Assembly (NCBI GenBank): GCA_011391255.1
Contig: JAABQV010000008.1
Coordinates: 62,001-126,000, forward strand
Reading direction: 5' to 3'
DNA from: Dechloromonas sp.
GTDB taxonomy: Bacteria > Pseudomonadota > Gammaproteobacteria > Burkholderiales > Rhodocyclaceae
DNA: 64,000 nucleotides
This document shows, piece after piece, positions 14,050 through 41,649 of this stretch (the stretch's first letter is position 1; each line of letters starts with the position of its first letter). The position numbers and the translations under genes are program-made. The notes beneath the pieces were generated by a model, which was given only the letters and a program-made list of their open reading frames with translations, was not told where the DNA came from and made no database searches.

Positions 14050-14061
14050 GGCGGGACTCAA

Positions 14062-25683: not shown

Positions 25684-27945
25684 TCAGGACGCTAAAATTG
25701 GCGTAGGCGGAACGGCATCCGCTTCGCGTTTCTTCAGCGGAACGACGAGCCAGAAGGTGCTGCCCTGGCCGGGGGTGCTCTCGACGCCGATTTCGCCGCC
25801 CATTAGTTGCACCAGACGCTTGCAGATCGCCAGCCCGAGGCCGGTGCCGCCGTAATTGCGGGTCATGCTGTTGTCGGCTTGTTCGAAGGACTGGAATAGC
25901 CGTGTCTGCGCTTCCGGTTCGATGCCAATGCCAGTGTCGACGACCTCGAAGCGCACTTGCACGGCTTCGGGGGTTTCACCGACCGAGTGGGCGCGCAGTG
26001 TCACGCCGCCCTGCTCGGTGAACTTGATCGCGTTGCCGACCAGGTTGAAGAGGATTTGGCCTAGCCGCAGAGGATCGCCCTTGAGTGGCTGACGCATGAG
26101 ATCGGCTGCGAGGTCGGTTGTCAGCCGCAGGCCTTTCTCAGTGGCTTTGTGGCCGAGGGTGCTGGTGAGATTCTCGACGACAACGGAGATCTGAAAGGGG
26201 ATGCTTTCGAAAACCATGCGCTCGGTTTCGAGCATGGAAATGTCGAGGATTTCGTTAAGTACGCCGAGCAAACGGTCAGCAGAGAGCTTCGCCTTGCTGA
26301 GATTGTCCAGTCCTTTGGGGTCGACCATGCGCCGCTTGGCTATGTCGATCATGCCCAACACGCCGTTCATCGGCGTGCGCAACTCGTGACTCATGTTGGC
26401 CAGGAAAGCGCTCTTCGCGCGGTTGGCGGCTTCGGCGGCGTCCTTCGCGGCGATAAGTTCGGCGGTGCGAGTGTCGACCAGTTGTTCCAGGTGGTGTCGA
26501 TAGGTATCGAGTTCGGCTTCGGCGGCTTTACGCTCGGTGATGTCCAGATTGAAACCCTGAAAAGCCTGGAATACGCCGTTTTCATCGAACAGCGGCAGCG
26601 TATGGCAGAAGAAATCCCGATACACCCCGTCGTGACGGCGCAGGCGGAAATAGTTGTCGTGCTCGGTCTTGGTTGCCCAGTGCTTCAACCAAACTTCGGT
26701 TGCTTTGGGCAGGTCATCCGGATGCAGCACCGACGTCCAGGATTCAATGGTCATACCATCGGCCTGTTTTTGGCCGGTAAAGTCATACCATTGCTTGTTG
26801 AAGAACGAATAACGCGTCCCATCAAAGACCCAGAGGAGTACCTTGGTTTCATCCAGCAGTCTGGTCAGACGTGCTTCGCTCTCCCGCAACAAATCCCCGC
26901 TGCGTTTGATATCTTCAGTCAGGCTATCGGCGATTTCCCGGGCACGAGCCTGCGTGCGCGCCAAGGCAAGCAGCAAGCCGTAAAGCAGACTGCTGAGCAC
27001 GATGCCACCGGCCAGTGTTGCCCAGGCGCTCACATAGTTGATGGGTGCTACGCCCGCAGCTGGATGAAATGCCAGCAACCAATGCTGGCCATTAAAATCA
27101 ATGCTGCGCTGCTGGTAGTAGCCCGGATCGATTTTATGGATGATGGCGGGGTGGCTATCGTACAGAAGACTGTCGGCCTTCACCGCGGGGCCAGCGTAGA
27201 TTTGCAGATGCACACGCTTGGTTTTGTGGTCAGCCCATTTGGCCAGAATACCTTTCAACAGGTCCTGCATCCGATAGGGGCTGTAAGACCAGCCGATCAG
27301 CGCGGCGCTGCGTTGCTCGACCGAGTCGGCTGGTGCGCCATTGCGATAGACCGGGACGTACATCAGCGTTCCGGCTTGCACCTCCGTACCGGTCTCCTGA
27401 ACCAGTTCAACCTTGCCGGACAATGCGGGCGCACCGCTGTCGCGCGCCTGTTCCATGGCGGCGCGGCGCACCGGCTCGGAGAACATATCATAGCCGAACG
27501 CGCGCAAATTGCGGTCGCGAAAGGGTTCCAGATAGATTATGGAAGTGTAGAGGGCGCGCTCGCCCGACGGGCGCACGGTGTAGTCGGGAAAGCCTTCGGC
27601 GCGAATGCGGCCGATATGCTCAGCCAATTGATGCGGTGGAATCACTTGCGAAAAACCGATGCCCTGCACCCCCGGAACGCTGTCCTGGGCATTAAGTTTC
27701 TCAACGTAGGCTTGCCATTCGTGGCGATCAACCGCGTTGGATGCGGCAAAGAGACTCGCGCCGCCCTTGAGAATCAGCGCATAGGCATCAAGTCGCTCCT
27801 GAATCTTCAGCGTGACCTGATCACTGGTGAATGCGATTTCGTCCGCAGCATCCTGTTCTATGGCCTGCTTGACCTCAAGGCTTGCAAGAATCGTCAATAC
27901 AAGCCCGACAACAAGGGTTAGCCAGGCGGCTACTTGTCGATTCAT
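25684..27945 (-). CDS. CHASE-PAS histidine kinase, formerly a hybrid kinase
   Basis: A 753-residue kinase from the ATG at 27945 (MNRQVAAWL). A longer reading through a run of prolines comes from the G-tract and is rejected. It has a membrane helix (8-28), a periplasmic CHASE domain (about 60-280), a second helix (about 308-330), a PAS domain (about 365-480), HisKA with His520 ([10 protein letters not shown]) and a HATPase domain (GTGLGLAI). The kinase core is intact, but the C-terminal receiver is lost by frameshift. It could still phosphorylate a receiver in trans. It is flanked by inverted repeats within an accessory island. Confidence 0.8.
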
Positions 27946-27968
27946 GACAGCGGGTAACTTATGCGCGC

Positions 27969-27993
27969 GGGGGGGGGGGGGGGGGGGGGGGGG
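27969..27993 (+). repeat. Homopolymer of 25 G (C on the sense strand of the kinase)
   Basis: An uninterrupted run of 25 G preceded by GCGCGC. On the minus strand it is a poly-C tract ending 23 bases before the kinase ATG, so length changes would alter promoter or leader spacing. The exact count could be affected by sequencing error. Confidence 0.9.
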
Positions 27994-28254
27994 TAGCATT
28001 AACCATGACATTTCTCGGAGAATCGCTTCTGATCTCGACTTTACACTTTGCCTAGGCAATTGTCTTTGTCAGCCCAAGCCTTGCCAATCAAGCAACCGCA
28101 GCAGACGTCAGCATATCGACGCACACCTGCCGCCCCAGAACACATTTTTTCTGCCAGACCACTGGCAGGTTGTGACCAACTCGAACCTAGCATCTCACGA
28201 TATTTTACATGGCGTATGAATGTTGCAGCGCACAAAGCCAGGCCAATCTTCTGT

Positions 28255-28358: not shown

Positions 28359-28610
28359 TCAAACGGCTGCCACCAGCGGCAATGCCGACGGGTTGCGTAC
28401 TGACTCGACCGCTAAATCAATATCAAGCAACGGCCAGTAAAGATGATTTTCCGCCGGCCATTTAACCTGAGACAACTGATCAATCGTCGCGCTGCGAAAC
28501 CAGGGAAACTCGGCAAAAGGCAGGAACAACTCCTCGTCGGCAAGCAGAAGCAAAAAGCCGTGTCTGGAGATATGAGTTAGCTCAACTTGGGAAATGTGCG
28601 TACCAGGCAT
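28359..28610 (-). CDS. DUF2442 domain protein
   Basis: An 83-residue protein resembling the DUF2442 family (HGFLLLLADEELFLPFAEFPWF, then VKWPAENHLYWPLLDIDLAVESV). Such genes are usually encoded next to DUF4160 genes. Here its start overlaps the 3' end of the DUF4160 pseudogene by 29 bases in another frame, the typical layout. A toxin-antitoxin-like role has been suspected for such pairs, but I cannot confirm it. Confidence 0.65.
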   Translation of the reverse strand: MPGTHISQVELTHISRHGFLLLLADEELFLPFAEFPWFRSATIDQLSQVKWPAENHLYWPLLDIDLAVESVRNPSALPLVAAV

Positions 28611-28821
28611 TGATCACCTCCTCCATATGAACAGCAACCAGACCCTGCGCTTACTTGATCTGCCTCGACGACAGCCCGGTGCTGGTGGCGAGCACCAATT
28701 CTGGCTTCAACCAAAATTTGGGCTCGCCGTCCGGATGGCTGACGTGGACATGCAATCTTGGCTCTTCTCGAGAAAAGAAAAAGAAACGAAAACCACCTTC
28801 GCGAAAAATTGTGGGTGCCAT
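28582..28821 (-). pseudogene. DUF4160 gene with an in-frame stop
   Basis: From ATG 28821 the frame gives MAPTIFREGGFRFFFFS, then EPRLHVHV and AKFWL-like GEPKFWLKPEL, the DUF4160 hallmarks. A TAA at 28651-28653 stops it after 56 residues. The same frame then continues without shift for 22 more family-like residues (AQGLVAVHMEEVINAWYAHF) to a TGA at 28582. A single CAA-to-TAA change explains this. Confidence 0.75.
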
Positions 28822-28896
28822 GGGTCGATTTTAGCGCTCAATGTTCCGGCCTTTAAGCGCATCAACTCAGCTGTTGCGGTCAACCCGGTTTTCGGG

Positions 28897-28955: not shown

Positions 28956-29459
28956 TTAAACCCCACCGCCGCGATGCACGACCTCGTAGTAAATCTTTTC
29001 CAAGTCCAGCTTGTGCTTGGTTTCTTCGCTGGCGAGAAACTTGAACAAGTCGCGGATTGGTCCTTCCGGCGTCGTGTCAGCCAGTTCGCCGTAGTGCCCC
29101 ATCGCCGCATGCTCGCGGCCCATGGCATATTGCAAGACGGCCTGGTCATCGGGCTGTTCGCCGAGATCGGGAACGTGCAGGCAATCTGAAAACTTGCTGT
29201 CGCTGGCGGTGCGCTGGATTTCCTGCTGCACCTGCTCGGCAATATCCGTGCGCTGAGCCAGCGCAGTGAGCAGATCCAAATGGCCCTGCTCTTCTGCCGC
29301 CAGTTCTTCAACCAGATAGCGAATGCGCTTGCTGACTTTGGGGGTCAGATCCTTGTAAAAATCGCGTGCGCTAGCCTCGAAGCCGGTGGCGACTTCGAGG
29401 ATTTCGCGCAGCGTGGCCTTGCCGCGCAGGCGATCAATTCCGTGACTACCTTCGGTCAT
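28956..29459 (-). CDS. Rubrerythrin/ferritin-like di-iron protein
   Basis: A 167-residue four-helix-bundle protein. Iron-ligand motifs are visible as ATGFEASARDFY, AAEEQGHLDLL, REHAAMGHYGEL and ASEETKHKLDLEKIYYE. There is no rubredoxin domain. It is the last gene of the Mbx-like operon and overlaps the flavoprotein gene by 4 bases. A peroxide- or oxygen-reducing role protecting the complex's iron-sulfur centres is inferred from that coupling. Confidence 0.82.
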   Translation of the reverse strand: MTEGSHGIDRLRGKATLREILEVATGFEASARDFYKDLTPKVSKRIRYLVEELAAEEQGHLDLLTALAQRTDIAEQVQQEIQRTASDSKFSDCLHVPDLGEQPDDQAVLQYAMGREHAAMGHYGELADTTPEGPIRDLFKFLASEETKHKLDLEKIYYEVVHRGGGV

Positions 29460-31252
29460 TTGCTTTGCTCCTTCAGAACCAGATTGGCATGCATGCTGGC
29501 GGCGACGCGATGGCCATCAGCCACAGCGGTCACAACATCCGGACCATGCACCATGTCGCCGACCGCCCACAGCCATGATTCGCTGGTGCGGCCGCCGGCA
29601 TCGATCTGAATCCGACCGCGATTCCAGGTCAAACGTTCCGTCAGTTCGTCACCCAACAGGCTGGCATCAGTCATCTGGCCAATGGCTTCGACGATCATGC
29701 TGCCTTGATGAAACTGCTCGTCGGCTTCGTCGTAGCTCGGCGCGAAACGCCCCTGCTCGTCAAAGATCGCCTTGACGCGCCAGGTTTTCAGACCGGTCAC
29801 CTTGCCGTCTTCAACGACGACCTGCTGCGGGCCGCGGGCATCGAGAATGATCACGCCCTCTTCGCCAGCTTCCTTGATTTCTTCAGGGTCGGCGAGGAAA
29901 TGGTTGATGTCTTCAAGCGCCGTCAGCGTCACGCGAACTTCGCCGTAAGCCGTCTTCTGCAATCGGGCGAGCGTGCGGGCGATGTCCATCGCGACATTAC
30001 CGCCGCCGATGACCACCGCCTGACGCGGGGTGCCGAAATCTTCATTGGCGGTCGCCTGGCGCAGCAGATCGACTGCCTTGCGCACATCGGGATGATCGCT
30101 GCCGGGGATGCGCGTTGCGCGGCCGAGTTGCAAGCCGAGGCCGAGCAGCACGGCATCGTTGTTGTTGCGCAGATCTTCCAGCGAAACATCCTTGCCGACC
30201 CGCGTGTTGCAGCGGATATCGACACCGAGCGAGCGGATCACATCGACATCACGGTCGATCACGTCATAAGGCAGACGGTATTCCGGGATACCCCAGCGCG
30301 TCATGCCGCCGGGCGCCGCCAACGCTTCATAGACGGTCACGCTGTGGCCCTGTTTGGCGAGGTCGAAGGCCGCCGTCAGGCCACCCGGGCCGGCGCCGAT
30401 GATTGCCACCTTCTTGCCGGTGCTGGCTGCCGGCTGGCCGACGACGCGCGTGATCTGATCGAAGGTAACCTGATCCATGATGTGGCGTTTGAGCCAACGG
30501 ATGGCAATCGGATCGCCTTCATGGCGCGCCGCACAGGTAGTTTCGCACTTGTGCGTGCATACCCGGCCACAGATGCCGGAGAAGGGATTTGAGTCATAAA
30601 GCAGTTTGAGGCCGAGATCGTAGTTACCGTCGCGAATTGCCGCGATGTATTGCGGAATCGCCATGTGCGTCGGGCAGGTGGCGACGCAGAGGCCACAGGA
30701 AACGCAGCGATCGGCCTCGAGCACTGCCTGTTCGACCGAATAGCCATCAACAATTTCGGCAAACGATCCGATCCGCACATCCGGCTCCATTTCGGGCATG
30801 TGCACACGGAGCTCGCCGGTCAGCCGGTGGCCTTCGGGGCGGACATAGCCGAGTTCGGCATCGTCCCAGTGTTTCTTGTCGACGCCCGGCGTAAAGCGGA
30901 ACTTGTCGGGATCGCTCTCGACCCAGGTGTAGGCGTTCGACATCGTCAGCGATTGCGTCATGCAGACATCGACACAGAGCGCGCACCAGCAGCAGCGCCC
31001 GTAGTCGATACGCGGACGCAGGCCGGAATCACCCTGCTTGGTCGGAATGCCCTCGACCGGCAACATGTCGATGGCGCCGTTCTGGCAGATCGTTTCGCAA
31101 GTGCCGCAGCCGATGCACTTTTCCATGTCGTTCTGGTGGAAACCGCGATAGCGCGGGGCGGCCTGGCGTTTCAGCGGATCGGCAATACTGACCGGATCGC
31201 GAAAGAGGTTTTTCCACGCAGTGAACGGGGAGAGGACGTCACGGACACTCAT
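29456..31252 (-). CDS. Ferredoxin-GltD fusion flavoprotein (electron-input subunit, MbxN/NuoI-like plus NfnB-like)
   Basis: A 598-residue fusion. Residues about 35-110 are an 8-iron ferredoxin of NuoI/MbxN type (CIGCGTCETIC and CCWCALCVDVC). Residues about 165-590 are a GltD-like NAD(P)H oxidoreductase with CVSCGLCVATC and CGRVCTHKCETTC cluster motifs, an FAD site (GAGPGGLTAAFDLA) and an NADPH site (VIGGGNVAMDIAR). This could move electrons between NAD(P)H and the NuoB/NuoD-like subunits. It replaces the NuoEFG module of complex I. It starts 2 bases after the NuoD-like gene. Confidence 0.85.
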   Translation of the reverse strand: MSVRDVLSPFTAWKNLFRDPVSIADPLKRQAAPRYRGFHQNDMEKCIGCGTCETICQNGAIDMLPVEGIPTKQGDSGLRPRIDYGRCCWCALCVDVCMTQSLTMSNAYTWVESDPDKFRFTPGVDKKHWDDAELGYVRPEGHRLTGELRVHMPEMEPDVRIGSFAEIVDGYSVEQAVLEADRCVSCGLCVATCPTHMAIPQYIAAIRDGNYDLGLKLLYDSNPFSGICGRVCTHKCETTCAARHEGDPIAIRWLKRHIMDQVTFDQITRVVGQPAASTGKKVAIIGAGPGGLTAAFDLAKQGHSVTVYEALAAPGGMTRWGIPEYRLPYDVIDRDVDVIRSLGVDIRCNTRVGKDVSLEDLRNNNDAVLLGLGLQLGRATRIPGSDHPDVRKAVDLLRQATANEDFGTPRQAVVIGGGNVAMDIARTLARLQKTAYGEVRVTLTALEDINHFLADPEEIKEAGEEGVIILDARGPQQVVVEDGKVTGLKTWRVKAIFDEQGRFAPSYDEADEQFHQGSMIVEAIGQMTDASLLGDELTERLTWNRGRIQIDAGGRTSESWLWAVGDMVHGPDVVTAVADGHRVAASMHANLVLKEQSK

Positions 31253-31254
31253 CG

Positions 31255-32430
31255 TTATCTCTCAATCTCGGGCGGATAGGTATGCAGCGAGACCATCAGG
31301 CCGGCCACATCGGAAATATTCAGATTGACGATCATCCGTTCGAGCAGCGCCACGGCATGCGTGTAGGACGGCCCGCGGACATTGATCCGGCGCGGGAAAC
31401 CGCTGCCGTCGGTGACCAGATAGTAGCCATACTCGCCGCGCGAACATTCTCCACGGATATAGGTTTCGCCGCGCGGAATTTTCCAGTGCAGGACATTCGG
31501 CGTAACCGCCATGACCGGCCCGTCTTTCGGCATCTTGGCGAGAATCTGACGAATCAGGTCGACCGACATTGTTACATCGCGACGCCGCACATCGGCGCGC
31601 GTGTAAATATCAGAATCCTTGCCGACGACCGGCTCGAAATCGAGCTCGTTGTAAACCAGGTAAGGCTGATCGCGGCGCACATCCTTGGCGACGCCGCCGG
31701 CCCGGGCGTTCGGCCCGGTGACGCCGTAGGCGTCCATCAGCGCCGGGTCGATGTAACCGACACCGACACTGCGCTTCTTGAAGACGGCGTTGCAGAACAT
31801 CACGTCGTACACGTCCTTCAGCGTGCTTTCGATTTCGCGCAGGGTTTCTTCCATGCGCTGCTCGAAGCCTTCTGGCAGACGGTCGCGAACGCCGCCCGGC
31901 ATGATGAACATGTGGTAAATCCGCGCCCCGGTCAGTTCCTCGAAACGATCGAGCATCAGGTCGCGAACATAGGTCGTCCATTGGCCGATGACGCCGAGGC
32001 CAAAGGCACCGGCCTGACCGCCGAGGTACATCATGTAGCTATTGACGCGGCCCATTTCGAGAATCAGCGTGCGGATCCAGTCGGCGAGCGGCGGCACCTT
32101 GATGCCGGCAAGCTCTTCAACGGCGGCGGCGTAGCAATATTCGTTGAAATCCGGCTCGGGAACGCAAACGCGGCAGACGATGGGGAAGACCTGAATGAAG
32201 CTGCGGCGCTCCATCAGCTTTTCAAAACCACGGTGCAGATAGCCGACATGGGTCTTGGCGTCGACCACCTCGTCGCCGCACACCGTCAGCTCGACCGACA
32301 TGTTGCCGGTGATGCCGGGGTGATTCGGGCCGTGCCAAAGCTTGAGGTATTTACCGGAAGTGAGGTCGATATCGAGCGTGCCGTCGGCCTTTTTGGCCGG
32401 GTACTGGCTGCGGTCAGGGGTATAACTCAT
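31255..32430 (-). CDS. NuoD/MbxL-like 49-kDa subunit
   Basis: A 391-residue member of the complex I 49-kDa/group 4 hydrogenase large-subunit family. It keeps GPNHPG, THVGYLHRGFEKLME and RGECSRGEYGYYLV. An N-terminal Cys86-x2-Cys89 (VCRVCVPEPDFNEYC) resembles the hydrogenase L1 motif, but the C-terminal cysteine pair is absent (ISDVAGLMVSLHTYPPEIER), so a NiFe site is not expected. That pattern recalls Mbx/MBS rather than Nuo. ATG 32430 is one base after the NuoC-like stop. An ATG at 32442 would overlap and is possible. Confidence 0.85.
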   Translation of the reverse strand: MSYTPDRSQYPAKKADGTLDIDLTSGKYLKLWHGPNHPGITGNMSVELTVCGDEVVDAKTHVGYLHRGFEKLMERRSFIQVFPIVCRVCVPEPDFNEYCYAAAVEELAGIKVPPLADWIRTLILEMGRVNSYMMYLGGQAGAFGLGVIGQWTTYVRDLMLDRFEELTGARIYHMFIMPGGVRDRLPEGFEQRMEETLREIESTLKDVYDVMFCNAVFKKRSVGVGYIDPALMDAYGVTGPNARAGGVAKDVRRDQPYLVYNELDFEPVVGKDSDIYTRADVRRRDVTMSVDLIRQILAKMPKDGPVMAVTPNVLHWKIPRGETYIRGECSRGEYGYYLVTDGSGFPRRINVRGPSYTHAVALLERMIVNLNISDVAGLMVSLHTYPPEIER

Positions 32431-32431
32431 C

Positions 32432-32965
32432 TCAGGCCCCATCCGGATAAAGTTGTTGCTTCATGTGCTGCTCCGGGTCGGTCGTCATGCGCCCTTCGCG
32501 CTCCTTGAAGGTCTTGGCAGAAAAAGCCTTGGTATCGAAATCGCGGCGATAAGGCGGCATATCGATCCAGCCTTCAAGAATGAAATCATCGTTGACGCCG
32601 GGGCTATCCGGAAACTGGATGCCGAACATCTCGCGCAACTCACGCTGATAGGTCGCCGCCGTCGGCCAGATGTCGTGGATGCTGTCCATGCTCGCGCCGT
32701 CGCGCGGGATCATCACGCGCAGGCCGAGATCGACAGCTTTGCCGCGATTGGAGAGTAGATAAGTAAGTTGAAAATTACCCTCTTCCAGCCAGTCGACCGC
32801 AGTCAATAGCACGAGATGGCTGAAACCTTCGAGATCGCGCAAATGCAGGATGATCGAACGCAAATGCTCGCGGGGAACTGTCAAAAAAGCGAGATCGGGC
32901 CGCTGTTCGGTCAGTTCGCCGAGCGGGAAGAGGGCATTTAGTCTGTCGTGAAGGGCGCGCATCAT
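32432..32965 (-). CDS. NuoC/MbxK-like 30-kDa subunit
   Basis: A 177-residue subunit with the NuoC signature (HDIWPTAATYQRELREMFGIQFPD, then PPYRRDFDTKAF). It scaffolds the interface of the NuoB- and NuoD-like subunits. It starts 2 bases after the NuoB-like stop at a double ATG. Longer starts lie inside the upstream gene. Confidence 0.88.
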   Translation of the reverse strand: MMRALHDRLNALFPLGELTEQRPDLAFLTVPREHLRSIILHLRDLEGFSHLVLLTAVDWLEEGNFQLTYLLSNRGKAVDLGLRVMIPRDGASMDSIHDIWPTAATYQRELREMFGIQFPDSPGVNDDFILEGWIDMPPYRRDFDTKAFSAKTFKEREGRMTTDPEQHMKQQLYPDGA

Positions 32966-32967
32966 CG

Positions 32968-33612
32968 TTACCAGTTGTAATCCGGCATGTCCCAGTCGTG
33001 GATCACCTGCTTCTGGTTGGCCTTGTACCATTCAAATTTTTCGGCGTACTGGTTGGCTCCCTCGGCCTTGCCGGCGCGAATCAGCTTTTTCAGATCCTCG
33101 AAACCCTGCAGCAGCGCCTCGGGGCGCGGCATGCAGCCGGTGATGTAGAGATCGACCGGCATGTAGTCGTCAAGCCGCTTGATCGTGTTGTACGAATCCC
33201 AGTACATGCCGCCATTGATCGTGCATGAACCCAGCCCGACGACATACTTGGGGTTCTGCATCTGCTCGTAGGCGCGAATCGCGCGCTTCAGGGTTTTGAC
33301 CGACAGATAACCTGAAATCACCAGCAGATTGGCCTGACGCGGCGTTGGCCGCCAGGCGATGCCGTAACGATAGGCGTCAAAACGCGGGGTCATCAGCGGA
33401 CGCATTTCAATCGCCCCGCAACCAGTGCCAAAACCGAGGATCCACAAGGAATGCGAACGCGCCCAGTTGAAGAGGTCCTCGACAATCTTGGCATAGGCCG
33501 GCGGATGACTGGCCGGCGGCGCTTCGCAGAAGTAGTCGCGGAGCGGATCGACTTCGAACTCGACGCCATCCGGCCCTTTGACGACGCGTATTTTCAGTTC
33601 TTCTCTCATCAT
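32968..33612 (-). CDS. NuoB/MbxJ-like subunit with an altered iron-sulfur motif
   Basis: A 214-residue homologue of NuoB/MbxJ. In complex I the terminal cluster uses a tandem Cys-Cys. Here the motif reads GFGTGCGAIEM with only Cys65, while the later ligands remain (GSCTINGGMYW and GCMPRPE). Three canonical ligands are thus visible, and the fourth may come from another residue. The start at 33612 shares a base with the NuoH-like stop (TAATG). ATG 33609 is the alternative. Confidence 0.82.
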   Translation of the reverse strand: MMREELKIRVVKGPDGVEFEVDPLRDYFCEAPPASHPPAYAKIVEDLFNWARSHSLWILGFGTGCGAIEMRPLMTPRFDAYRYGIAWRPTPRQANLLVISGYLSVKTLKRAIRAYEQMQNPKYVVGLGSCTINGGMYWDSYNTIKRLDDYMPVDLYITGCMPRPEALLQGFEDLKKLIRAGKAEGANQYAEKFEWYKANQKQVIHDWDMPDYNW

Positions 33613-34520
33613 TACACCATCACGATCGAAAGGACGCCGAGCGGAACTGCCCAAATCAGGAACCAGCGGATCGACTGCTCAACCCGGAAGCGCGGGAAGA
33701 CGACGCCGACAAAGGCCGACCACAGATAAATCATGAAGACCTTGAAGAAGAAGGTCGGCCAGTCGGTCGCCCCGCCAAAAAAGAGGTTCATGTAGATGAC
33801 GATCTTGGCAATCGGGAAGATCGCCCGATTGGTCTGCATCAGCGCCAGATAGGAGGAGTGGTACTCGGTCGGGGGCCCGATCGGGATTTCCTGCGGGGCG
33901 ATCACGACGTCAAAAGGCGGGCGCATCATCGAGCCAAGGAAGGACAGCATCGCCGCCGAAACCGCCAGCGGGTTGGTGAACAGCGTCCAGTTCAAGACGC
34001 CGCCCTGCTGCGCGGCAACGATGTCGGTAACCGAGAGCGTCTGATATTGCAGCGCCACCGAAAATACCGCGAGTGCGAACGGTAGCTCGGCCGTCGTGAC
34101 CTGAGAAAGGCCACGCGTAATACCGATGGCGGCATGCGGATGACCGCTTTCGCCGGCGCCGAGCGCCATGCCGAGGGTGCCGAAAAAAATGAAGTAGAGT
34201 GCGAGGATCAGGTCGCCGGCAAAGGACATGTTGGAGAACATCGTCGAGCCGTAAATGATCGGCACAAAAAGGATCAGGCCAACCCCGCCGGAGAGCCGAA
34301 AAACTGGGCCGAGGTAGAACATCACACCATGCGTGATCGAGCTGCGCAGGCCGTAGTTCTTGAACATGTCGGCATAATTCTGCCAGATCGGAATGCCATG
34401 CCGGCGCCCAACCCGCGCTCCTATCTTCTGGATAAAGGCATTGAGCAGAAAGCCATAATTGACGACGATGAACAGCGTCAGGAAGGCGTAGGGGATTTTC
34501 ATCCAGTCGAAATCCATCAC
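33612..34520 (-). CDS. NuoH/MbxM-like membrane subunit
   Basis: A 302-residue integral membrane protein of the complex I subunit 1 family with about eight helices. Family motifs include QKIGARVGRRHGIPIWQ, AELPFALAVFS and the MRPPFDVVIAPQEIPIGPPTEYHS loop that contacts the NuoB/NuoD-like subunits. It links the hydrophilic arm to the antiporter-like module. It overlaps the large antiporter gene by one base. Confidence 0.88.
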   Translation of the reverse strand: MMDFDWMKIPYAFLTLFIVVNYGFLLNAFIQKIGARVGRRHGIPIWQNYADMFKNYGLRSSITHGVMFYLGPVFRLSGGVGLILFVPIIYGSTMFSNMSFAGDLILALYFIFFGTLGMALGAGESGHPHAAIGITRGLSQVTTAELPFALAVFSVALQYQTLSVTDIVAAQQGGVLNWTLFTNPLAVSAAMLSFLGSMMRPPFDVVIAPQEIPIGPPTEYHSSYLALMQTNRAIFPIAKIVIYMNLFFGGATDWPTFFFKVFMIYLWSAFVGVVFPRFRVEQSIRWFLIWAVPLGVLSIVMV

Positions 34521-37500
34521 TAGACTCCTAGACGCATGAAGAAGACGACCACGACAAAGGCCAGGAAGTGGAAGGCATAAGTCTGCCCGTTACCGTTATA
34601 GAGTTTGCGCGAGAAATCAGCCGTCGAATGCAGCAACTCGGTCAACCCGCCCCAGAAACGCGTGACGAAAGGCTGCACCATGAAGCCGAGCGCCTTGCGG
34701 TAGGGGGCGAAGAAATTCCAGGCAAAGTGCGTGGTTTCCGGACGGAACGGTCGCTCGGCGGAGAACACGATATTGAATTGCTTGACCTTCTGCGCCTTGC
34801 GATTGACGAACAGCAGCCAGGCGAACAGGGTGCAGAAGATGACACCGATCGTGATCATGATCGCCACTGGATTCCAGTAACCGTAATTGCTGGTGATCTG
34901 GTTGGTCGCCCAGCCGAGCCCGCCTTCGGGGAAGAACCGGGTGAGGTATTCATCGACCCGACGCAGCGCGATGCCCGGGAACACTGCAAAGATCAGCAGC
35001 AGGACAACGTAGATCATCTGCGGCAGGACAATCCAGAACGGCGCTTCCTTGATCTGGCGGAACTCATCCTTCAATTGGCCGAGGAAGATCGCGTAGATCA
35101 GGCGGAACAGGTAAAGGAAGGCAATCGGCCCGGCGAGGAAGATGACAACCATCGGCAGACGATAGTCGCTGTCGAGAATCGCGTTGTAGAAAATCCAGCG
35201 CCCGCCAAAACCGGACAGCGGCGGCACACCAGAGACCGCGATGATGCCGATCAGGACGGCAACGAACGAGAAGGGCATCAGCGTGATCAGGCCGCCCATC
35301 TTGTACATGTCGCGCGTGCCAGTGCGCTTGGCAACGCCCCCGACGGCGAGGAAGAGCATCGATTTGTAGATGTAGTGGTTGATGACGAACATCAGCGCCA
35401 TCAGCCAGCCGAGGTGATTCATCAGCGCCAGCCCAAAGAGCGCATAACCCATCTGGCCGATCGAGGAATAGGCGAGAAGACGCTTGGCATCTTCCTGAAA
35501 AATCGCCATCAGGTTGCCGAGGAAGGCGGTGATCGCGGCGATCCAGAGCAGCACGTGAGTCAATTCGACACCGTAGAGTTGTTGCTTACCCATCGTCAGC
35601 AGCAAAACCATCATACCGTAGAGACCGGCCTTGAGCAGAATGCCGGAAACCATCGGCGAAACGTCGGTTTCAGCTTCGGCGTGGGCACCCGGCAACCAGA
35701 TGTGCACACCGATGGCGGCCGTCTTGGTCATGAAACCGATTGCCAGCATGGCAAAAACCCAGGGCGCGACCGGCTGTTCCAGCTGACGCAGCGACTCGAT
35801 CAGGTAGTGATACGAACCGTCGGCAGCGATTGCAAAGCCGGCCAGGATCATGAAGGCGCCGCCGAGTGAAAAGATGATGTAGGACAGCGCGTGCGGCTCG
35901 GATTCCTTGCCACGCAGGATCAGGAAGTAGGAGCCGATGGTGAGAAATTCCCAGGCGGCAAAAAAGCCGAAGGTGTCGGTGGCGTGGATCAGCATTGCCA
36001 GGCCGGCATACATCAGCATCGCCGACGGATAGAAGCCAACCCGCCGACCGTGCGCCGAGTAACTGGCGAGCAGGGTGATCGCGCCACCAACGAGGATGAT
36101 GATGGCAAAGATCAGTTGCAGCGGATCATAGCCGGGATAAGTCAGGTAAAAGAAAGTGCTCATACCGACGATGGCGATGCTGTTCTTGACCCAGGCCGGC
36201 AGCCAGTCGAGCAGCAGGAAACTGAGCGCAAAGAGCAGCGGGATGGCGAGCAGCAGATTGGCGCGGCCGGACAACTCGCCCCAGACAAAGCCCAGCGCCC
36301 AGCCGGCGAAAACTGCAACAAAAACCGGCAGCACTTTGTGCGCAACGCAAACCACAGCTTCAGCCGGCGCTTCGCGTTTGATGATGTAGCCAAACCAGCG
36401 GAAGAGGTAAGCCGCTTCGATCAAGGCGCCGATCAGGATCAGCGCCAGCAGGGCAAGCCGACCTTCGCTGGCGAGCAGGCGGACGAGATCCCACTTGGCG
36501 TAGAAGCCGGGGAACGGCGGCAGGCCGGAGAGCATGCAAATAAAAGTGACGAAGGCGAAAACCAGCAAGGGGCGCTTGGCTATCACCGACCAATCACTCA
36601 GGCCACGCCCGGCAACCAGGCCGGAGAGCCAGAAAAGGCCAGCCTTGGCAACTGAATGCGAAACCAGCAAACCGAAGGCGATGAATTCCGTACTCTCGCC
36701 GAGGATGTCGCGCTGGCCGAGAACGGTGAGTACCAGACCAATCTGGGCAATCGACGAATAGCCAAGCAGACGGCGGTCGTTGGTCTGCGGCAGGGCGAAC
36801 AGGTTGGATGCGACGAAAGTCAGGATGCCGACGCCAGTCGCCACCGGCAGCCAGTCGGCACCGCCGATCAGCAGCAATTTGTCGAGCGCGAAAACGGTTG
36901 CCGCACTGGAAGCCGCTGAAAAGATCGCCGAGAAGGCCGGATGGGCGGACTCGTAGATATCGAGCGCCCAACCGTTGGCCGGGAAAGGCTTGAGTTCGGC
37001 AACCACGGCAATGAACATCATGAAAAAGGCAATCGCCCCGCCATTCAACAAGGCCCATTGCGTGCCGTTCATGCCGTCGATATTGAGCGTACCGGTGACA
37101 TGGTAGGCAAACAGGACACCTAGCAGCAGGAAGACAGAAATCACTTGCGAAACAATCAGGTATTTGAAGCCGGCAGAGAGCGCGCGGCCATCGTCGTTGG
37201 CATCCGAGAACAAGATCAGCCCGCCGGTGGCGATGACGGTCAACTCGAAAAAGACGAACAAATTGAAAGCGTCGCGGGTCAGGATAATGCCGCACAGCGC
37301 CATGGTTGCAATCAGGAGCACGGCCATCGCGCGGCGCCCGAGCTCGAGAAGGGTGTCCTTGAGATAAATTGCCGACAACAGGCCGGTGAGATTGACGAGC
37401 AGTGTCAAAGCCGCCTCGGCCAAACCCATCCGCAGATTGATGGCGAACGGTGGCTCGGTACCGGCGGTGAAAATTTCAACCGTCAAAACGCCGTCGACCG

Positions 37501-37654
37501 CAAAAGCCCACAGCCAGCCGGCCGAAACCCAGGTCATGAAGGCGAGCGCCAGCAAGGTCACGGTGTAGGCCAGCCCGCGCTTGTCTTCCTTGATCAAACC
37601 AAGGAAGAAGGCGGCAGCCATTGCTGCCGCGATGATGTAGAGCGCGTTTACCAT
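34520..37654 (-). CDS. Fused double antiporter-like subunit (MbxH-H'/MrpD-like)
   Basis: A 1044-residue membrane protein made of two complete antiporter-like domains. The first (about 1-470) has the TM5 Glu (FFELTVIATGG) and TM7 Lys (LKPFPANGW). The second (about 490-900) has AWEFLTIGSYF and TKTAAIGVHIWLPGAHAEA. An extension of about 140 residues follows, with further helices. In Mbx/MBS the two are separate genes H and H'. Each domain should form an ion-translocation channel (proton or sodium). Position between the MrpC-like and NuoH-like genes is as in Mbx. Confidence 0.87.
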   Translation of the reverse strand: MVNALYIIAAAMAAAFFLGLIKEDKRGLAYTVTLLALAFMTWVSAGWLWAFAVDGVLTVEIFTAGTEPPFAINLRMGLAEAALTLLVNLTGLLSAIYLKDTLLELGRRAMAVLLIATMALCGIILTRDAFNLFVFFELTVIATGGLILFSDANDDGRALSAGFKYLIVSQVISVFLLLGVLFAYHVTGTLNIDGMNGTQWALLNGGAIAFFMMFIAVVAELKPFPANGWALDIYESAHPAFSAIFSAASSAATVFALDKLLLIGGADWLPVATGVGILTFVASNLFALPQTNDRRLLGYSSIAQIGLVLTVLGQRDILGESTEFIAFGLLVSHSVAKAGLFWLSGLVAGRGLSDWSVIAKRPLLVFAFVTFICMLSGLPPFPGFYAKWDLVRLLASEGRLALLALILIGALIEAAYLFRWFGYIIKREAPAEAVVCVAHKVLPVFVAVFAGWALGFVWGELSGRANLLLAIPLLFALSFLLLDWLPAWVKNSIAIVGMSTFFYLTYPGYDPLQLIFAIIILVGGAITLLASYSAHGRRVGFYPSAMLMYAGLAMLIHATDTFGFFAAWEFLTIGSYFLILRGKESEPHALSYIIFSLGGAFMILAGFAIAADGSYHYLIESLRQLEQPVAPWVFAMLAIGFMTKTAAIGVHIWLPGAHAEAETDVSPMVSGILLKAGLYGMMVLLLTMGKQQLYGVELTHVLLWIAAITAFLGNLMAIFQEDAKRLLAYSSIGQMGYALFGLALMNHLGWLMALMFVINHYIYKSMLFLAVGGVAKRTGTRDMYKMGGLITLMPFSFVAVLIGIIAVSGVPPLSGFGGRWIFYNAILDSDYRLPMVVIFLAGPIAFLYLFRLIYAIFLGQLKDEFRQIKEAPFWIVLPQMIYVVLLLIFAVFPGIALRRVDEYLTRFFPEGGLGWATNQITSNYGYWNPVAIMITIGVIFCTLFAWLLFVNRKAQKVKQFNIVFSAERPFRPETTHFAWNFFAPYRKALGFMVQPFVTRFWGGLTELLHSTADFSRKLYNGNGQTYAFHFLAFVVVVFFMRLGV

Positions 37655-38004
37655 TTGAGCTCCGTGAACTTCCCGATATCCAGCGTGCGCTTGGACTCGT
37701 AAAGCTTGTAGGCATAAGCCAGCATCAGCGCGGTAACGCCGACGCCGATAACGATGGCAGTGAGCACCAGCGCCTGTGGCACCGGGTCGATAATGCGCAG
37801 CACTGCATCGCTGGCGGCCACCGCCGAGTCAATGATTGGCGCAGTGCGGCCGTGCATGTAGCCAATCGCGACAATGACCAGATGGACGCCTGTGTTGGCG
37901 ATGGTGAAGGCGACGATCATGCGCAGCAGATTGCGATTGGTCAGCGCGCCGTAGAAGCCGATCAGAATCAGGATAAAGCCGGTTGCCATGACGAGATAGG
38001 CCAT
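37648..38004 (-). CDS. MrpC/NuoK-like subunit (MbxG)
   Basis: A 118-residue protein with three helices and the MrpC/NuoK motifs (NLLRMIVAFTIANTGVHLVIVAIGY and DPVPQALVLTAIVIGVGVTALMLA). It overlaps the fused antiporter gene by 7 bases and abuts the MrpB-like gene. It contributes to the ion pathway of the membrane module. Confidence 0.88.
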   Translation of the reverse strand: MAYLVMATGFILILIGFYGALTNRNLLRMIVAFTIANTGVHLVIVAIGYMHGRTAPIIDSAVAASDAVLRIIDPVPQALVLTAIVIGVGVTALMLAYAYKLYESKRTLDIGKFTELKW

Positions 38005-38702
38005 TACAGTTCCTCCGTCGCCGAGAGGTCAGCCAGGATGGACGAGAACTCGGCACCCACCTTGAGACCAATCAGCGAATAGATCAGCGGGATCGCACCG
38101 GCTGAAAAGAGCGCGCCGAGCTCGCCGATCGGCAATATCCGGTTATCGAGAAAGCCGCCGGCGAAGACCAGTCCGGCGACGCCGATTGCCACATAGAAAA
38201 TGCCGGCAATCGACTCCAGCGCCGAAATCAGACGATGGCTGAAGTGCTTGAGCGGATCGGTCAGCAGCAGCAACAGGACACCCGAAGCAATGATCGCCCC
38301 GCCTTGGAAACCGCCACCCGGGGTCAAGTGACCATTCACAAAGACATAGACGCCGAGCAGCATGATCAGCGGCGTCAGCAGGCGGCTGCCGGTAACCAGC
38401 AGTTCGCCAGCCGGGGCCAGATTGCGTTGTTGATGTTCCTGCTTCTTGCCACGCGCCAGCACCAGGCCAACGATGGAAGCCGAGAGGAAGAGCACAGTCA
38501 CTTCACCAAGGGTATCGAGACCGCGATAGGTGACGACGATGGCGGTGACGATGTTGGCTGAACCGAGATCGACAGCGGTGCGCTCGGCGTAATAGAGCGC
38601 TGTCAGGTTGAGCCAGGTATCGGGTTCGTAGCTGACCAGCAGGGCGGAAAAAATGGCAGCGACAAAGAGGAGCAGCAGAAATACGGCAAAGTTCTTAATC
38701 AT
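38004..38702 (-). CDS. MrpB-like subunit (MbxF-like)
   Basis: A 232-residue membrane protein. An N-terminal part with TAIVVTYRGLDTLGEVTVLFLSASIVGLVL resembles MbhE/MrpA C-terminal sequence. The MnhB domain follows (LLITPLIMLLGVYVFVNGHLTPGGGFQGG). It therefore combines the roles of two small archaeal subunits. ATG 38702 overlaps the end of the DUF4040-like gene. Confidence 0.83.
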   Translation of the reverse strand: MIKNFAVFLLLLFVAAIFSALLVSYEPDTWLNLTALYYAERTAVDLGSANIVTAIVVTYRGLDTLGEVTVLFLSASIVGLVLARGKKQEHQQRNLAPAGELLVTGSRLLTPLIMLLGVYVFVNGHLTPGGGFQGGAIIASGVLLLLLTDPLKHFSHRLISALESIAGIFYVAIGVAGLVFAGGFLDNRILPIGELGALFSAGAIPLIYSLIGLKVGAEFSSILADLSATEEL

Positions 38703-38949
38703 TTTCGCCTCCGCGGACACGACCGAGGACGAAGAAAAGCAGGAAGGTGGTCAGTCCGCTGCCGATGGCTGCCTCGGTCATCGCCACGTCGGGCGAGGCC
38801 ATGACGAGAAAGACGATGGAGGCAGCAAGACTGACCAGACCGGCCGCCAGTATCGCCACCGGCAGGCTCTTGCCGCGCACTGCGAGAATGGCGGCACCGA
38901 TCATCGTGACCGACAGCAGGACCGTCATTCCGACAAGGATCGGGCTCAT
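38695..38949 (-). CDS. DUF4040/MbxD-like small subunit
   Basis: An 84-residue protein with two to three helices and the SPDVAMTEAAIGSGLTTFLL signature of the MrpA C-terminal (DUF4040) domain. As in Mbx, this domain is a separate gene between the MrpG- and MrpB-like genes. Confidence 0.83.
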   Translation of the reverse strand: MSPILVGMTVLLSVTMIGAAILAVRGKSLPVAILAAGLVSLAASIVFLVMASPDVAMTEAAIGSGLTTFLLFFVLGRVRGGEND

Positions 38950-39284
38950 GAGCGGCCTCCAAAATCATCTTCGAGGCGGTCAACTGCCGTCAGGGGCGAT
39001 TTTTCAGAACCGCTGCGGTGGGCGGCGCGCGCCAACACCTGTGAAGAAATCGGGTTGGTGAACAAGACGAACAAGCCGATCAGCGCCAGCTTCAGTGCCC
39101 AGTCAGGTTGCAGACAGGCAGCGCCAGCGAGGGTCAGCAAGGTGCCCAGGGTCGTCGCCTTGGTCCCGGCCTGAATACGGTTGAAGACATCGGGCATGCG
39201 CCTCAGCCCGAGGCCACCGAGCAACAGGAAGGCGCTGCCGGCAATCAGCAAGAGGCCGCCGAGCGGAGCAAGCAATTCAGTCAT
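38946..39284 (-). CDS. MrpG-like subunit (MbxC)
   Basis: A 112-residue membrane protein of the MnhG family (LLLIAGSAFLLLGGLGLRRMPDVFNRIQAGTKATTLG). It is encoded between MrpF- and DUF4040-like genes with a 4-base overlap. Confidence 0.88.
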   Translation of the reverse strand: MTELLAPLGGLLLIAGSAFLLLGGLGLRRMPDVFNRIQAGTKATTLGTLLTLAGAACLQPDWALKLALIGLFVLFTNPISSQVLARAAHRSGSEKSPLTAVDRLEDDFGGRS

Positions 39285-39544
39285 CAGAACCCCCGTTCCA
39301 GATAACGGGCGACGACGATCACGCCCAGGAAGGAGAGCAGCGCATAGATCAGCGCGACGTCGAGATAGATGCCGCGCCCTTCGGCCAGCGAGACGAGAAC
39401 GATGCCGGTGATGCCGATAATGGTCAGGACGTCAAAGGCAACCACGCGATCGGCTGGCGACGGTCCGCGGAAAAAGCGCTCAAGGGCCAGCAAAAATGCG
39501 ACGCCGGTAATCGCGGCAGCGATATAGACCAGGATTTCAACCAT
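39284..39544 (-). CDS. MrpF-like subunit (MbxB)
   Basis: An 86-residue three-helix protein of the MnhF family (RFFRGPSPADRVVAFDVLTIIGITGIVL). Coupled on both sides: it overlaps the MrpE-like gene and shares its stop region with the MrpG-like start. Confidence 0.88.
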   Translation of the reverse strand: MVEILVYIAAAITGVAFLLALERFFRGPSPADRVVAFDVLTIIGITGIVLVSLAEGRGIYLDVALIYALLSFLGVIVVARYLERGF

Positions 39545-40034
39545 ACATCACCTCGAGATAGTCCTCGAATCCGGAAACAATCGCCGCCGTCGCCTCGTCA
39601 ATATCGGCGGAATCGACCGTCACCCAATGGATATAGAGCCACTCGCCAAGCATCTCGACGGTCAGCGTGCCCGGCGTCAAAGTGATCGAGTTGGCCAGCA
39701 TCAGGCGCCCCATCCTGCTTTTCAGGCGCGTCCTGACTTTGACGATACCGGGATTGAGTGGCAGCGAAGGCGCCAGAACGACAGAGGCGAGATTGAGGTT
39801 GGCCTTGACCAGTTCTTTAATGAAAAAGAAAAAGTACAGCACCGTCGTCAGCAAAGCGCGTGGATTCAGGCGCAGCTCGGAGAAAAACCCGAGGCCGTTT
39901 CTGAACAGAAACGTAATCACCGCAGCGGCAACAGCACCAACCATCAGCACGTCATTGGCAAGCGAGGCGTTCAACAGCAACCAGAATAAAAACAGTGCCG
40001 CGAACATCAACAGCGAGTCTTTCGCCTTGTTCAT
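39537..40034 (-). CDS. MrpE-like subunit (MbxA), first gene of the operon
   Basis: A 165-residue MnhE-family protein with two N-terminal helices and the domain VRTRLKSRMGRLMLANSITLTPGTLTVEM. I chose ATG 40034 (MNKAKDSLL). A longer frame would place a cysteine-rich leader through the operator region. It opens the 13-gene unit, which ends at the rubrerythrin gene. Confidence 0.87.
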   Translation of the reverse strand: MNKAKDSLLMFAALFLFWLLLNASLANDVLMVGAVAAAVITFLFRNGLGFFSELRLNPRALLTTVLYFFFFIKELVKANLNLASVVLAPSLPLNPGIVKVRTRLKSRMGRLMLANSITLTPGTLTVEMLGEWLYIHWVTVDSADIDEATAAIVSGFEDYLEVMYG

Positions 40035-40201: not shown

Positions 40202-40227
40202 AAAAAAAACAGGCGCAGTAGCGCCTG
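40202..40227 (-). terminator. Terminator of the HlyD export operon
   Basis: On the minus strand CAGGCGC-TACT-GCGCCTG is followed by eight T, 17 bases after the HlyD-family stop codon. Confidence 0.9.
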
Positions 40228-40243
40228 ATCTGACCGCAAACGC

Positions 40244-41248
40244 TCACAAGGCCTTCAAATAAGCCTCAGCTGCAGCAAAGCGTAACAGTGACCCGATCAC
40301 GAGATCGAGGAAGCCGAGCAGATGAATTGGTTTTTCGGCAGCTATCCAGGCCTTGCCGGTAGCACCAACCGGAATGTGCACACCTTCCGGCTCCTCGAAC
40401 TCGAGAATCACGGTGCGCCCAATCTCGTTCCTGTTCTTCACCACATGCTGCGTTACGCTCTGCGGCGTACCGAGAAGCGCGCCTTGCGCCTCACCGGTGG
40501 ACTCGGTAATGCTGTGCACGCGGGCGCGAAAGATCTTGCCCGGGTAGGCATCCACATAGAACTCCGAGAAAGCACGCGGCTTGATGAATTCGTAGACCTG
40601 ATCCGGAATGCGCAACTCGATGAACTTCTTGTTGGTGAACATGTGAATCGCCGCCGGACGCTGCTCGCCAAAATACTGCCCTTCCGACGAAAACTGCACG
40701 GCCACCTGCCCGTCTACAGGAGCAACAACCAGCGCCTTGTCGATCTTCCACTGCAGGTCTGCCATATCCTGCTCGGCCTTGATCACCAGATCACGCTGGG
40801 TGGCGACTTCGGCCACCTTGGCATCGTATTCCGACTGTGGAATAACTTCGCCACGCAGCTTGCCAAGACGCTTGAGATCGTTTTCCAGCTTGCCCAACTG
40901 CGTCTGCAAACGACCCTTCTCGGCCTTTTTGGCGGCCATCTGGATGGCGTAGCGGTCAGTCTTGAAGCTATACACCGGATCGCCGGCTTTCAGCTTCTGG
41001 TTGTGGGTCACATAGAGCTTGTCGATTTCACCCCCGGCCGGACTATTGAGCACGATGTGCGGCGCCTTGACGGTGGTTGTCGCGGTCAGGTCGATGAAGG
41101 CGTAATAACGGGTAAAGGTCAACAGCATAAAAAGCACGAAAACCGCGCCGAGGCTCATGGCGACGAAATTGCCGATGGTCTTTTTGACAAAGCCGAACTT
41201 GACCAACAGCCAGCAAATCAGAAAATACGGAACCAGGGTCAGCTTCAT
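40244..41248 (-). CDS. HlyD-family membrane fusion protein
   Basis: A 334-residue periplasmic adaptor. Two N-terminal helices (about 5-22 and 29-48) are followed by a biotinyl-lipoyl-like half-motif (VKAPHIVLNSPAGGEIDKLYVTHNQKLKAGDPVYS), a coiled coil (about 105-175) and the second lipoyl half (ALVVAPVDGQVAVQF). It would bridge an inner-membrane partner and the outer-membrane factor encoded in the same operon. The domain layout with two N-terminal helices is like E. coli YiaV/YibH. Confidence 0.85.
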   Translation of the reverse strand: MKLTLVPYFLICWLLVKFGFVKKTIGNFVAMSLGAVFVLFMLLTFTRYYAFIDLTATTTVKAPHIVLNSPAGGEIDKLYVTHNQKLKAGDPVYSFKTDRYAIQMAAKKAEKGRLQTQLGKLENDLKRLGKLRGEVIPQSEYDAKVAEVATQRDLVIKAEQDMADLQWKIDKALVVAPVDGQVAVQFSSEGQYFGEQRPAAIHMFTNKKFIELRIPDQVYEFIKPRAFSEFYVDAYPGKIFRARVHSITESTGEAQGALLGTPQSVTQHVVKNRNEIGRTVILEFEEPEGVHIPVGATGKAWIAAEKPIHLLGFLDLVIGSLLRFAAAEAYLKAL

Positions 41249-41649
41249 GCCTTGTTCTCCCCGCTGTGATTGCTTGCCGATTCAAGCGGGACATCGTCAG
41301 CCGCCGGTGTCCGCGAGCGGCGCAGAATACGCACCAGAAAATCCTCGAAGGCCTGCCAGTCCATATAGGCAATGAACAGGGCGAGCGCCCAGATTTCGTG
41401 CATGAACAGGCCAAGCAGGGTCAGCGCGGTGACCAGCTCGGCTTGCCGCATATTCTTGTGGCCGGCCTTGTGCGACGGAATCTCGTGGATACGCCAAGCC
41501 AGCATGAGCAAGGCAACGACGCCGATCAGCAGGGCTGGTAACAAAATATAGAGCAACCAGTCAGCATCAAGAACTTCGCGATAAATACCGAAGGGTTCGT
41601 TGACAAAGTAGCCCTCGGGCTTCTCTTCGGCATAGACATGGAACATCAT
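41245..41649 (-). CDS. DUF3302-like inner-membrane protein (YiaW/YibI type)
   Basis: A 134-residue protein with two strong helices (about 30-52 and 73-95) and the IHEIPSHKAGHKN and LTLLGLFMHEIWALALF segments that resemble the DUF3302 family. In E. coli such a gene sits beside a HlyD-type gene. It overlaps both neighbours, and the GGAGGAGG ribosome site is inside the outer-membrane-factor gene. Function unknown. Confidence 0.65.
   Translation of the reverse strand: MMFHVYAEEKPEGYFVNEPFGIYREVLDADWLLYILLPALLIGVVALLMLAWRIHEIPSHKAGHKNMRQAELVTALTLLGLFMHEIWALALFIAYMDWQAFEDFLVRILRRSRTPAADDVPLESASNHSGENKA

Follow-up and report, generated by a model that had tools for sequence, protein, structure and literature searches.

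In the MBS complex of Pyrococcus furiosus, as described in PMC7684303, the quinone residues of complex I (H38 and Y87 of Nqo4) are absent and the proximal [4Fe-4S] cluster has three cysteine ligands, leaving one iron able to bind polysulfide. For MBX of Thermotoga maritima the mbxA transcript is reported to go up 4.36-fold with elemental sulfur (S0) (PMC9431562), and in the Riftia symbiont Endoriftia the expression of a putative Mrp-Mbx complex has been grouped with the reductive tricarboxylic acid cycle, its function being marked as unknown in that paper (PMC11636981). Other hydrogenase-related complexes with Mrp-like subunits have been described as well (PMC6349859). We here report a related operon in a stretch of 64,000 nucleotides from Dechloromonas sp. 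(assembly GCA_011391255.1, contig JAABQV010000008.1, positions 62,001 to 126,000; hereafter the window). The operon occupies positions 28956..40034 on the minus strand and consists of 13 open, tightly packed genes, twelve for subunits of the complex and one for a rubrerythrin-like protein, in the order MrpE, MrpF, MrpG, MbhD/DUF4040, MbhE+MrpB, MrpC, double pump, NuoH-, NuoB-, NuoC- and NuoD-like, ferredoxin-GltD fusion and rubrerythrin-like. Judged from its sequence, it encodes a complex of the MBX/MBS class and not a variant of complex I, and we consider it fairly probable that this complex is an ion-pumping NAD(H):sulfane-sulfur oxidoreductase of the bacterial MBX/MBS class, in which a double pump subunit is combined with an Mrp module.

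The initial annotation had likewise seen an Mbx/MBS-like complex in a betaproteobacterium, a view to be given up if the subunits fell inside canonical Nuo clades. Among solved structures (PDB), the NuoD/MbsL-like large subunit (31255..32442, minus strand, as are all genes of the operon; PF00346 Complex1_49kDa) is closest to MbsL with 305 bits, followed by Nqo4 (210), MbhL (133) and the formate hydrogenlyase large subunit (111). The NuoB/MbsJ-like proximal-cluster subunit (32968..33612, 214 aa from an ATG at 33612; PF01058 Oxidored_q6) scores 217 bits against MbsJ, the next match being at 137, and the NuoH/MbsM-like membrane anchor (33612..34520, GTG start; PF00146 NADHdh) 131 bits against MbsM, the next at 50. 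The pump subunit (34520..37654, 1044 aa, two Proton_antipo_M stretches) joins an MbsH-like N-half to an MbsH'-like C-half, and the protein scores 199 bits against MbsH' with its C-half and 139 against MbsH, so that the MBX/MBS trait of two pump subunits, H and H', together with an Mrp module is present, with H and H' fused in one protein. The best fold match of the AlphaFold model of the NuoD-like subunit is also MbsL, at 40% identity, as against 26-32% for the complex I chains listed. In a large-subunit tree of 70 rows, in which MbsL on a long branch is the only archaeal MBS row and which has no rows of MbhL or Fpo, 29 of the 75 NuoD-like rows of the family and MbsL form one clade of 30 rows (100/99), apart from both the Nuo and the group 4 rows; the 32 Nuo rows and the host's canonical NuoD make up a second (98/80), with 7 group 4-like rows outside. 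The NuoD-like protein thus branches with MBS and outside Nuo, as had been anticipated.

The host's canonical NuoD is encoded on another contig, and a NuoD match of more than 300 bits, which fits canonical NuoD, was found in at least 45 of 51 carrier genomes (the host and 50 genomes from the loci described below, hand-picked and related), so that the complex exists alongside complex I. The proposal that it is an alternative to complex I therefore did not hold. As had been said, no NuoEFG is present in the operon. Three carrier genomes (G411, G416 and G419, with loci L030, L037 and L041) show no NuoD above 300 bits among the matches listed; they may be without canonical complex I, or the genomes may be incomplete.

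Residues were counted in alignments of 75 rows for the NuoD-like, 65 for the NuoB-like, 79 for the ferredoxin-GltD, 61 for the rubrerythrin-like and 58 for the pump protein. In the NuoD-like subunit, the positions of Nqo4 H38 and Y87 are taken by Thr45 and Val94 in all 75 rows, that of the window included, whereas the Nuo comparison rows have His and Tyr there in 32 of 32; since these quinone-site residues are lost, quinone reduction is unlikely. At the place of the CxxC of MBS and the CC of complex I, the NuoB-like subunit has a single cysteine, Cys65 (65/65 rows), so that the cysteine that stands idle in MBS is gone here. Cys65, Cys130 and Cys160 are kept in every one of these rows, a motif that leaves three cysteines for the proximal cluster, which NuoB Cys29 or the new NuoD cysteines might also ligate. 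Only the first of the four NiFe cysteines of hydrogenases is kept in the NuoD-like subunit (Cys93, 68/75 rows); in place of the second there is Glu96, as in MbsL, and the C-terminal pair is missing, as seen in an alignment with locus L126, which has both motifs. The model of this subunit is weak in the chamber loops (pLDDT below 50 at 41-46, 68-85, 92-97 and elsewhere).

Electrons would enter through the product of 29456..31252, in which a NuoI/MbsN-type 2[4Fe-4S] ferredoxin is fused to a GltD/NfnB-type module for FAD, Fe-S clusters and NAD(P) (Fer4, Fer4_20 and Pyr_redox_2 matches). Such a fusion of the terminal ferredoxin to a flavoprotein had been read from the letters and is borne out by matches to solved structures, residues 6-112 being MbsN-like and 150-591 like the Nfn large subunit; Nfn large subunits also ranked first in a Foldseek search with the AlphaFold model of the fusion, most of whose ferredoxin part (1-65 and 80-146) is weak. 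With 873 bits over nearly the whole of NCBIfam model NF010590 (PRK13984), below its curated cut-off of 946, the protein is a close relative of that family. Seventeen cysteines, enough for four clusters, are invariant in 79 of 79 rows. In NfnB the phosphate of NADP is held by Tyr310-Arg311-Arg312, and among three DsrL enzymes that have been measured, NADP(H) is used by the enzyme carrying this YRR motif, and the two without it prefer or need NAD(H), as described in PMC7596348. At this position the window has Ala445-Leu446-Glu447, right after the strand formed by residues 441-444 in the model, and Glu447 is found in 76 of 79 rows, with Lys in the other 3. Because ALE replaces YRR, the fusion is predicted, by analogy with DsrL, to use NADH rather than NADPH; of the 'NAD(P)H' first proposed, the NAD(P)-type input module thus stands and the choice of nucleotide is narrowed. 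Glu117, the NfnB ligand of the flavin-near cluster named in PMC7596348, aligns by eye with Lys255, which is invariant in the 29 rows of the alignment; this disfavors Nfn-like bifurcation. Both of these NfnB traits, the YRR motif and the Glu ligand, are accordingly absent from the fusion.

The remaining subunits, assigned like the others by Pfam profile matches, are MrpE-like (39537..40034, 165 aa from an ATG at 40034; PF01899 MNHE, 1.8e-37; a longer TTG frame extends to 40088), MrpF-like (39284..39544; PF04066, 5.7e-18), MrpG-like (38946..39284; PF03334, 3.8e-24), MbhD-like or DUF4040 (38695..38949; PF13244, 9.7e-16), MbhE plus MrpB (MnhB) in one GTG-started frame (38004..38720; PF20501, 2e-07, and PF04039, 2.1e-23), MrpC-like (37648..38004; PF00420, 4.9e-23) and NuoC-like (32432..32965, 177 aa from an ATG at 32965; PF00329 Complex1_30kDa, 8.3e-25 on the longer frame to 33031). 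Start codons of the MrpE, NuoB and NuoC genes were picked from the lengths of homologues. Adjacent genes overlap by 1-26 bp or are separated by 2-bp gaps, and the operon runs from the likely MrpE ATG at 40034 to the stop of the rubrerythrin-like gene at 28956. The gene order and strand given in the initial annotation were right, every gene named there being open and in its place; it had counted thirteen genes, which are indeed present, and had named only twelve, the thirteenth being that for the rubrerythrin-like protein.

This last gene (28956..29459; PF02915, 2.2e-12) overlaps the stop of the GltD part by 4 bp and is followed directly by what appears by eye to be a palindrome with a T run. 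Its product has two ExxH motifs, with Glu57 in 60 of 61 rows and His60, Glu146 and His149 in all 61. In one locus (L010, genome G291) the GltD part continues in frame, by eye, into a C-terminal rubrerythrin-like domain within a frame of 656 aa, the ferredoxin part lying outside the frame. The match had been considered as a DsrL, which was rejected when the reading frame showed this junction. The in-frame fusion supports a physical tie between the rubrerythrin-like protein and GltD; a role in protection from O2 or peroxide is our guess. In the pump protein, compared with the MBS residues given in PMC7684303, both halves keep most of the charged residues of complex I-type pumps. Lys250 of MbsH is replaced by Ala252 in 58 of 58 rows, with Lys222 (58/58) and Lys259 (57/58) conserved nearby, and Lys399 of MbsH' by Arg819 in 54 of 58 rows, the other 4 having Lys; the proton path of the N-half may be rewired.

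When public genomes were scanned with an alignment of 11 rows for the fusion, at least 272 places that encode a relative were found; the best 80 of these were kept as loci, and their gene content was determined by BLASTP with the window proteins. All 12 subunits were found in 56 of the 80 loci, with identical order in 56 of 56, which excludes a chance grouping; the other 24 are without one or more genes, and many of these loci are short. The rubrerythrin-like gene is also present in 49 of the 56 complete loci, and in L050 and L053 such a gene stands before MrpE and not after the fusion gene. The double pump protein exceeds 1000 aa in 55 of the complete loci and is split in one (L065). Carriers among the 80 loci include Sulfuritalea, Gallionella, Thiothrix, Thiohalocapsa, Lamprobacter, Sedimenticola and Magnetovibrio, as well as Celeribacter, Tropicimonas, Rhodobacter aestuarii, Bacteroidales, Prolixibacter and Neomarinimicrobiota. 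This places a complex known chiefly from work on hyperthermophiles in many Proteobacteria, Bacteroidota and Neomarinimicrobiota. In a protein search with the fusion, 3938 of 8000 scored candidates had E-values of 1e-100 or lower, some of which may be other GltD fusions, so that this is no count of complexes. The best 120 matches listed in each of two such searches bore names of Proteobacteria in one and of Bacteroidales or Neomarinimicrobiota in the other, with none from Thermotoga in either. The T. maritima genome, included as a control, does have a PRK13984-type fusion above the curated cut-off, which would be a candidate for the input subunit of MBX. Among 398 genomes drawn across the phylum, the fusion was found in 6 (G291 counted), so that it occurs widely without being common. 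Among the sequences flanking the 80 loci only one family, PAS/GGDEF/EAL-like by eye, reached 5 loci, so that the context outside the operon gives no further hint of function.

The distribution links the complex to reverse-Dsr and Sox sulfur oxidation. The host, a betaproteobacterium close to Azonexus and Dechloromonas, with a TldD that shares 90-94% identity with named proteins from these groups, has dsrA, soxB and a RuBisCO-family gene. Among the 51 carriers, dsrA was found in 39, soxB in 41 and either in 46, and the RuBisCO large-chain family, RuBisCO-like proteins included, in 43; the corresponding numbers for the 398 phylum genomes, a set that overlaps the carriers in the host and probably two Magnetococcales, are 53, 60, 98 and 111. 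All six carriers inside the phylum sample (G291 counted) have dsrA. The control genome of T. maritima gave no match to dsrA or soxB.

In the oxidoreductase that we favor, electrons would pass between NAD(H), FAD and the two [4Fe-4S] clusters of the GltD part, the two [4Fe-4S] clusters of the fused NuoI-type ferredoxin, and then the proximal [4Fe-4S] cluster with its three conserved cysteines and the substrate, which would be a polysulfide, a persulfide or another disulfide lying in the chamber that houses quinone in complex I. This exchange of electrons would be coupled to ion movement by the double pump subunit and the Mrp module. We infer the substrate, the preference for NADH over NADPH, the ion pumped and the direction. 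The NAD+/NADH couple lies at about -320 mV, polysulfide at about -260 to -270 mV and ferredoxin at -400 mV or lower. NADH would therefore give far less drive than ferredoxin gives MBS, and a complex with two pumps would work near equilibrium. With only a small drop between NADH and polysulfide, the complex may operate in either direction, and its reverse operation in an energized sulfur oxidizer could produce NADH. For the host, with its dsrA, soxB and RuBisCO-family genes, reduction of NAD+ by electrons from sulfide or persulfide, driven by the ion gradient, seems about as likely as sulfur reduction, whereas sulfur reduction, the forward direction, would come more naturally to carriers that ferment. 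More tentatively, and with the balance tilting against it, the complex could serve lithoautotrophic sulfur oxidizers in general for a reverse electron transport free of quinone, in which an ion gradient drives electrons from sulfide or persulfide to NAD+ and perhaps to ferredoxin. If true, such transport would spare the cost of lifting electrons from quinol through complex I. It has long been asked how these bacteria gain NADH from sulfur compounds, and a direct coupling site between sulfur and NAD would be a testable answer.

Several observations weigh against the sulfane-sulfur oxidoreductase. Forward flow from NADH to polysulfide would yield little energy for two pumps, and the activity is a prediction made from the genes. 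Twelve of the 51 carriers are without dsrA, including Celeribacter, Tropicimonas, Rhodobacter aestuarii and both Bacteroidota tested, and 5, the two Bacteroidota among them, have neither dsrA nor soxB; with related carriers that were picked by hand, the link to these genes is an association and not a test. Within the phylum sample a RuBisCO-family match was found in no more than 2 of the 6 carriers, which disfavors a tie to autotrophy. There are moreover additional conserved cysteines: Cys29 of NuoB (64/65 rows), which lies beyond the reach of the MBS alignment, and Cys90 (73/75), Cys103 (74/75) and Cys333 (65/75) of NuoD, to which no cysteine of MbsL aligns. These could supply a fourth ligand to the cluster or a site for a metal, or take part in handling a thiol substrate. 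The strongest competitor, which we nevertheless regard as doubtful, is an ion-coupled NAD(H):ferredoxin oxidoreductase, Rnf-like in effect, or a pump coupled to a bifurcating enzyme of the Nfn kind; soluble ferredoxin would then receive or donate low-potential electrons, with the chamber serving another role. In its favor, the NuoI-type ferredoxin domain is like that of the ferredoxin-using MBS, the module is of NfnB type, and all 79 rows keep the cysteines for the Fe-S clusters of the fusion; set against this are the absence of the NfnB partner NfnA from the operon, the invariant Lys255 seen by eye at the Glu ligand position, and the fact that the input is already fused. Ferredoxin may nevertheless be a second partner of the complex.

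A quinone-reducing alternative complex I, that is, an NAD(P)H:quinone oxidoreductase in which GltD replaces NuoEFG, is improbable, even though the operon encodes NuoH-, NuoB-, NuoC- and NuoD-like subunits along with pumps and the hosts are mostly respiring Proteobacteria. It was rejected on residues, the equivalents of H38 and Y87 being missing in 75 of 75 rows and present in all 32 Nuo rows; in addition, the NuoD-like subunit falls outside Nuo in the tree, and at least 45 of the 51 carriers have their separate NuoD. The one remaining cysteine of the four that hold NiFe, with Glu96 at the second position and the C-terminal pair absent, likewise led us to reject an energy-converting NiFe hydrogenase of the Mbh kind, which the Mbh-like layout of the operon and the Pfam families MbhD and MbhE might suggest and which we hold to be extremely unlikely. 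A redox-independent Na+/H+ antiporter with decayed redox subunits would explain the complete Mrp-type set, but the redox subunits are among the best conserved (17 cysteines of the fusion in 79/79 rows, the NuoB motif in 65/65), and we give this reading equally little credence.

Just upstream of the operon, at 40244-43034, lie HlyD-like and outer-membrane efflux genes with a gene for a 134-aa protein without a Pfam match between them, and a terminator-like hairpin with a T run (40210..40227, minus strand) separates the HlyD-like gene from MrpE, 20 such sites occurring in the window where 13.7 are expected. After the operon, 28600-28830 (minus strand) encodes what we take to be a small DUF4160-type protein. 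Two CHASE-domain histidine kinases are encoded at 25684-28059, directly downstream and on the same strand, and at 5639-7768. Farther away are genes for an Fe-S/CCG protein and an FAD-linked oxidase (10245-14061; Pfam), presumably resembling a glycolate oxidase set, and a SulP-type permease with STAS and cyclic-nucleotide-binding domains (61989-63953).

The initial annotation had considered the complex as not described in this lineage. A literature search, with supplements and most subscription papers outside its scope, found no description of such an operon, with its NADH-type flavoprotein, from sulfur oxidizers of the rDsr type, nor of the missing fourth cysteine, the extra cysteines or the rubrerythrin partner, so that the claim may stand for these features; for the kind of complex it does not, since the operon is widespread and such complexes are in print. 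A cluster of six Hyf-like genes in Ca. Symbiobacter mobilis, which according to PMC4053972 is present in more than 300 bacteria and does not serve sulfur reduction, was set aside as a different, smaller set. Complex I shares homologous core subunits, and the complex described here differs from it by its separate clade, the lack of NuoEFG in the operon and the loss of the quinone residues. NfnB and DsrL have the same module for FAD, two [4Fe-4S] clusters and NAD(P) as the fusion (PMC7596348). The extra ferredoxin domain is C-terminal in DsrL according to that account, whereas that of the fusion is N-terminal and NuoI-like; from NfnB the fusion differs by ALE in place of YRR, with NfnA not in the operon. 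The nearest solved relative of the NuoD-, NuoB-, NuoH-like and pump subunits is the MBS of P. furiosus (PDB 6u8y), for which PMC7684303 likewise describes the loss of the quinone residues and the retention of three cluster cysteines. As described there, MBS takes electrons from ferredoxin and has H and H' as separate chains, whereas in the present complex the ferredoxin subunit carries a fused GltD module and H and H' form one protein; MBS also keeps C25 of MbsJ and C385 of MbsL, both of which are gone here, and new cysteines and a rubrerythrin gene are found. Natural loss of the cysteine idle in MBS together with the gain of others amounts to a natural experiment on the mechanism proposed for MBS. 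The MBX of T. maritima is described as a bacterial MBS homologue with 13 subunits, induced by S0 (PMC9431562), and the putative Mrp-Mbx of Endoriftia has been so named likewise in a sulfur-oxidizing proteobacterium (PMC11636981). The kind of complex is thus already in print, and the operon of Dechloromonas sp. is a variant of it.

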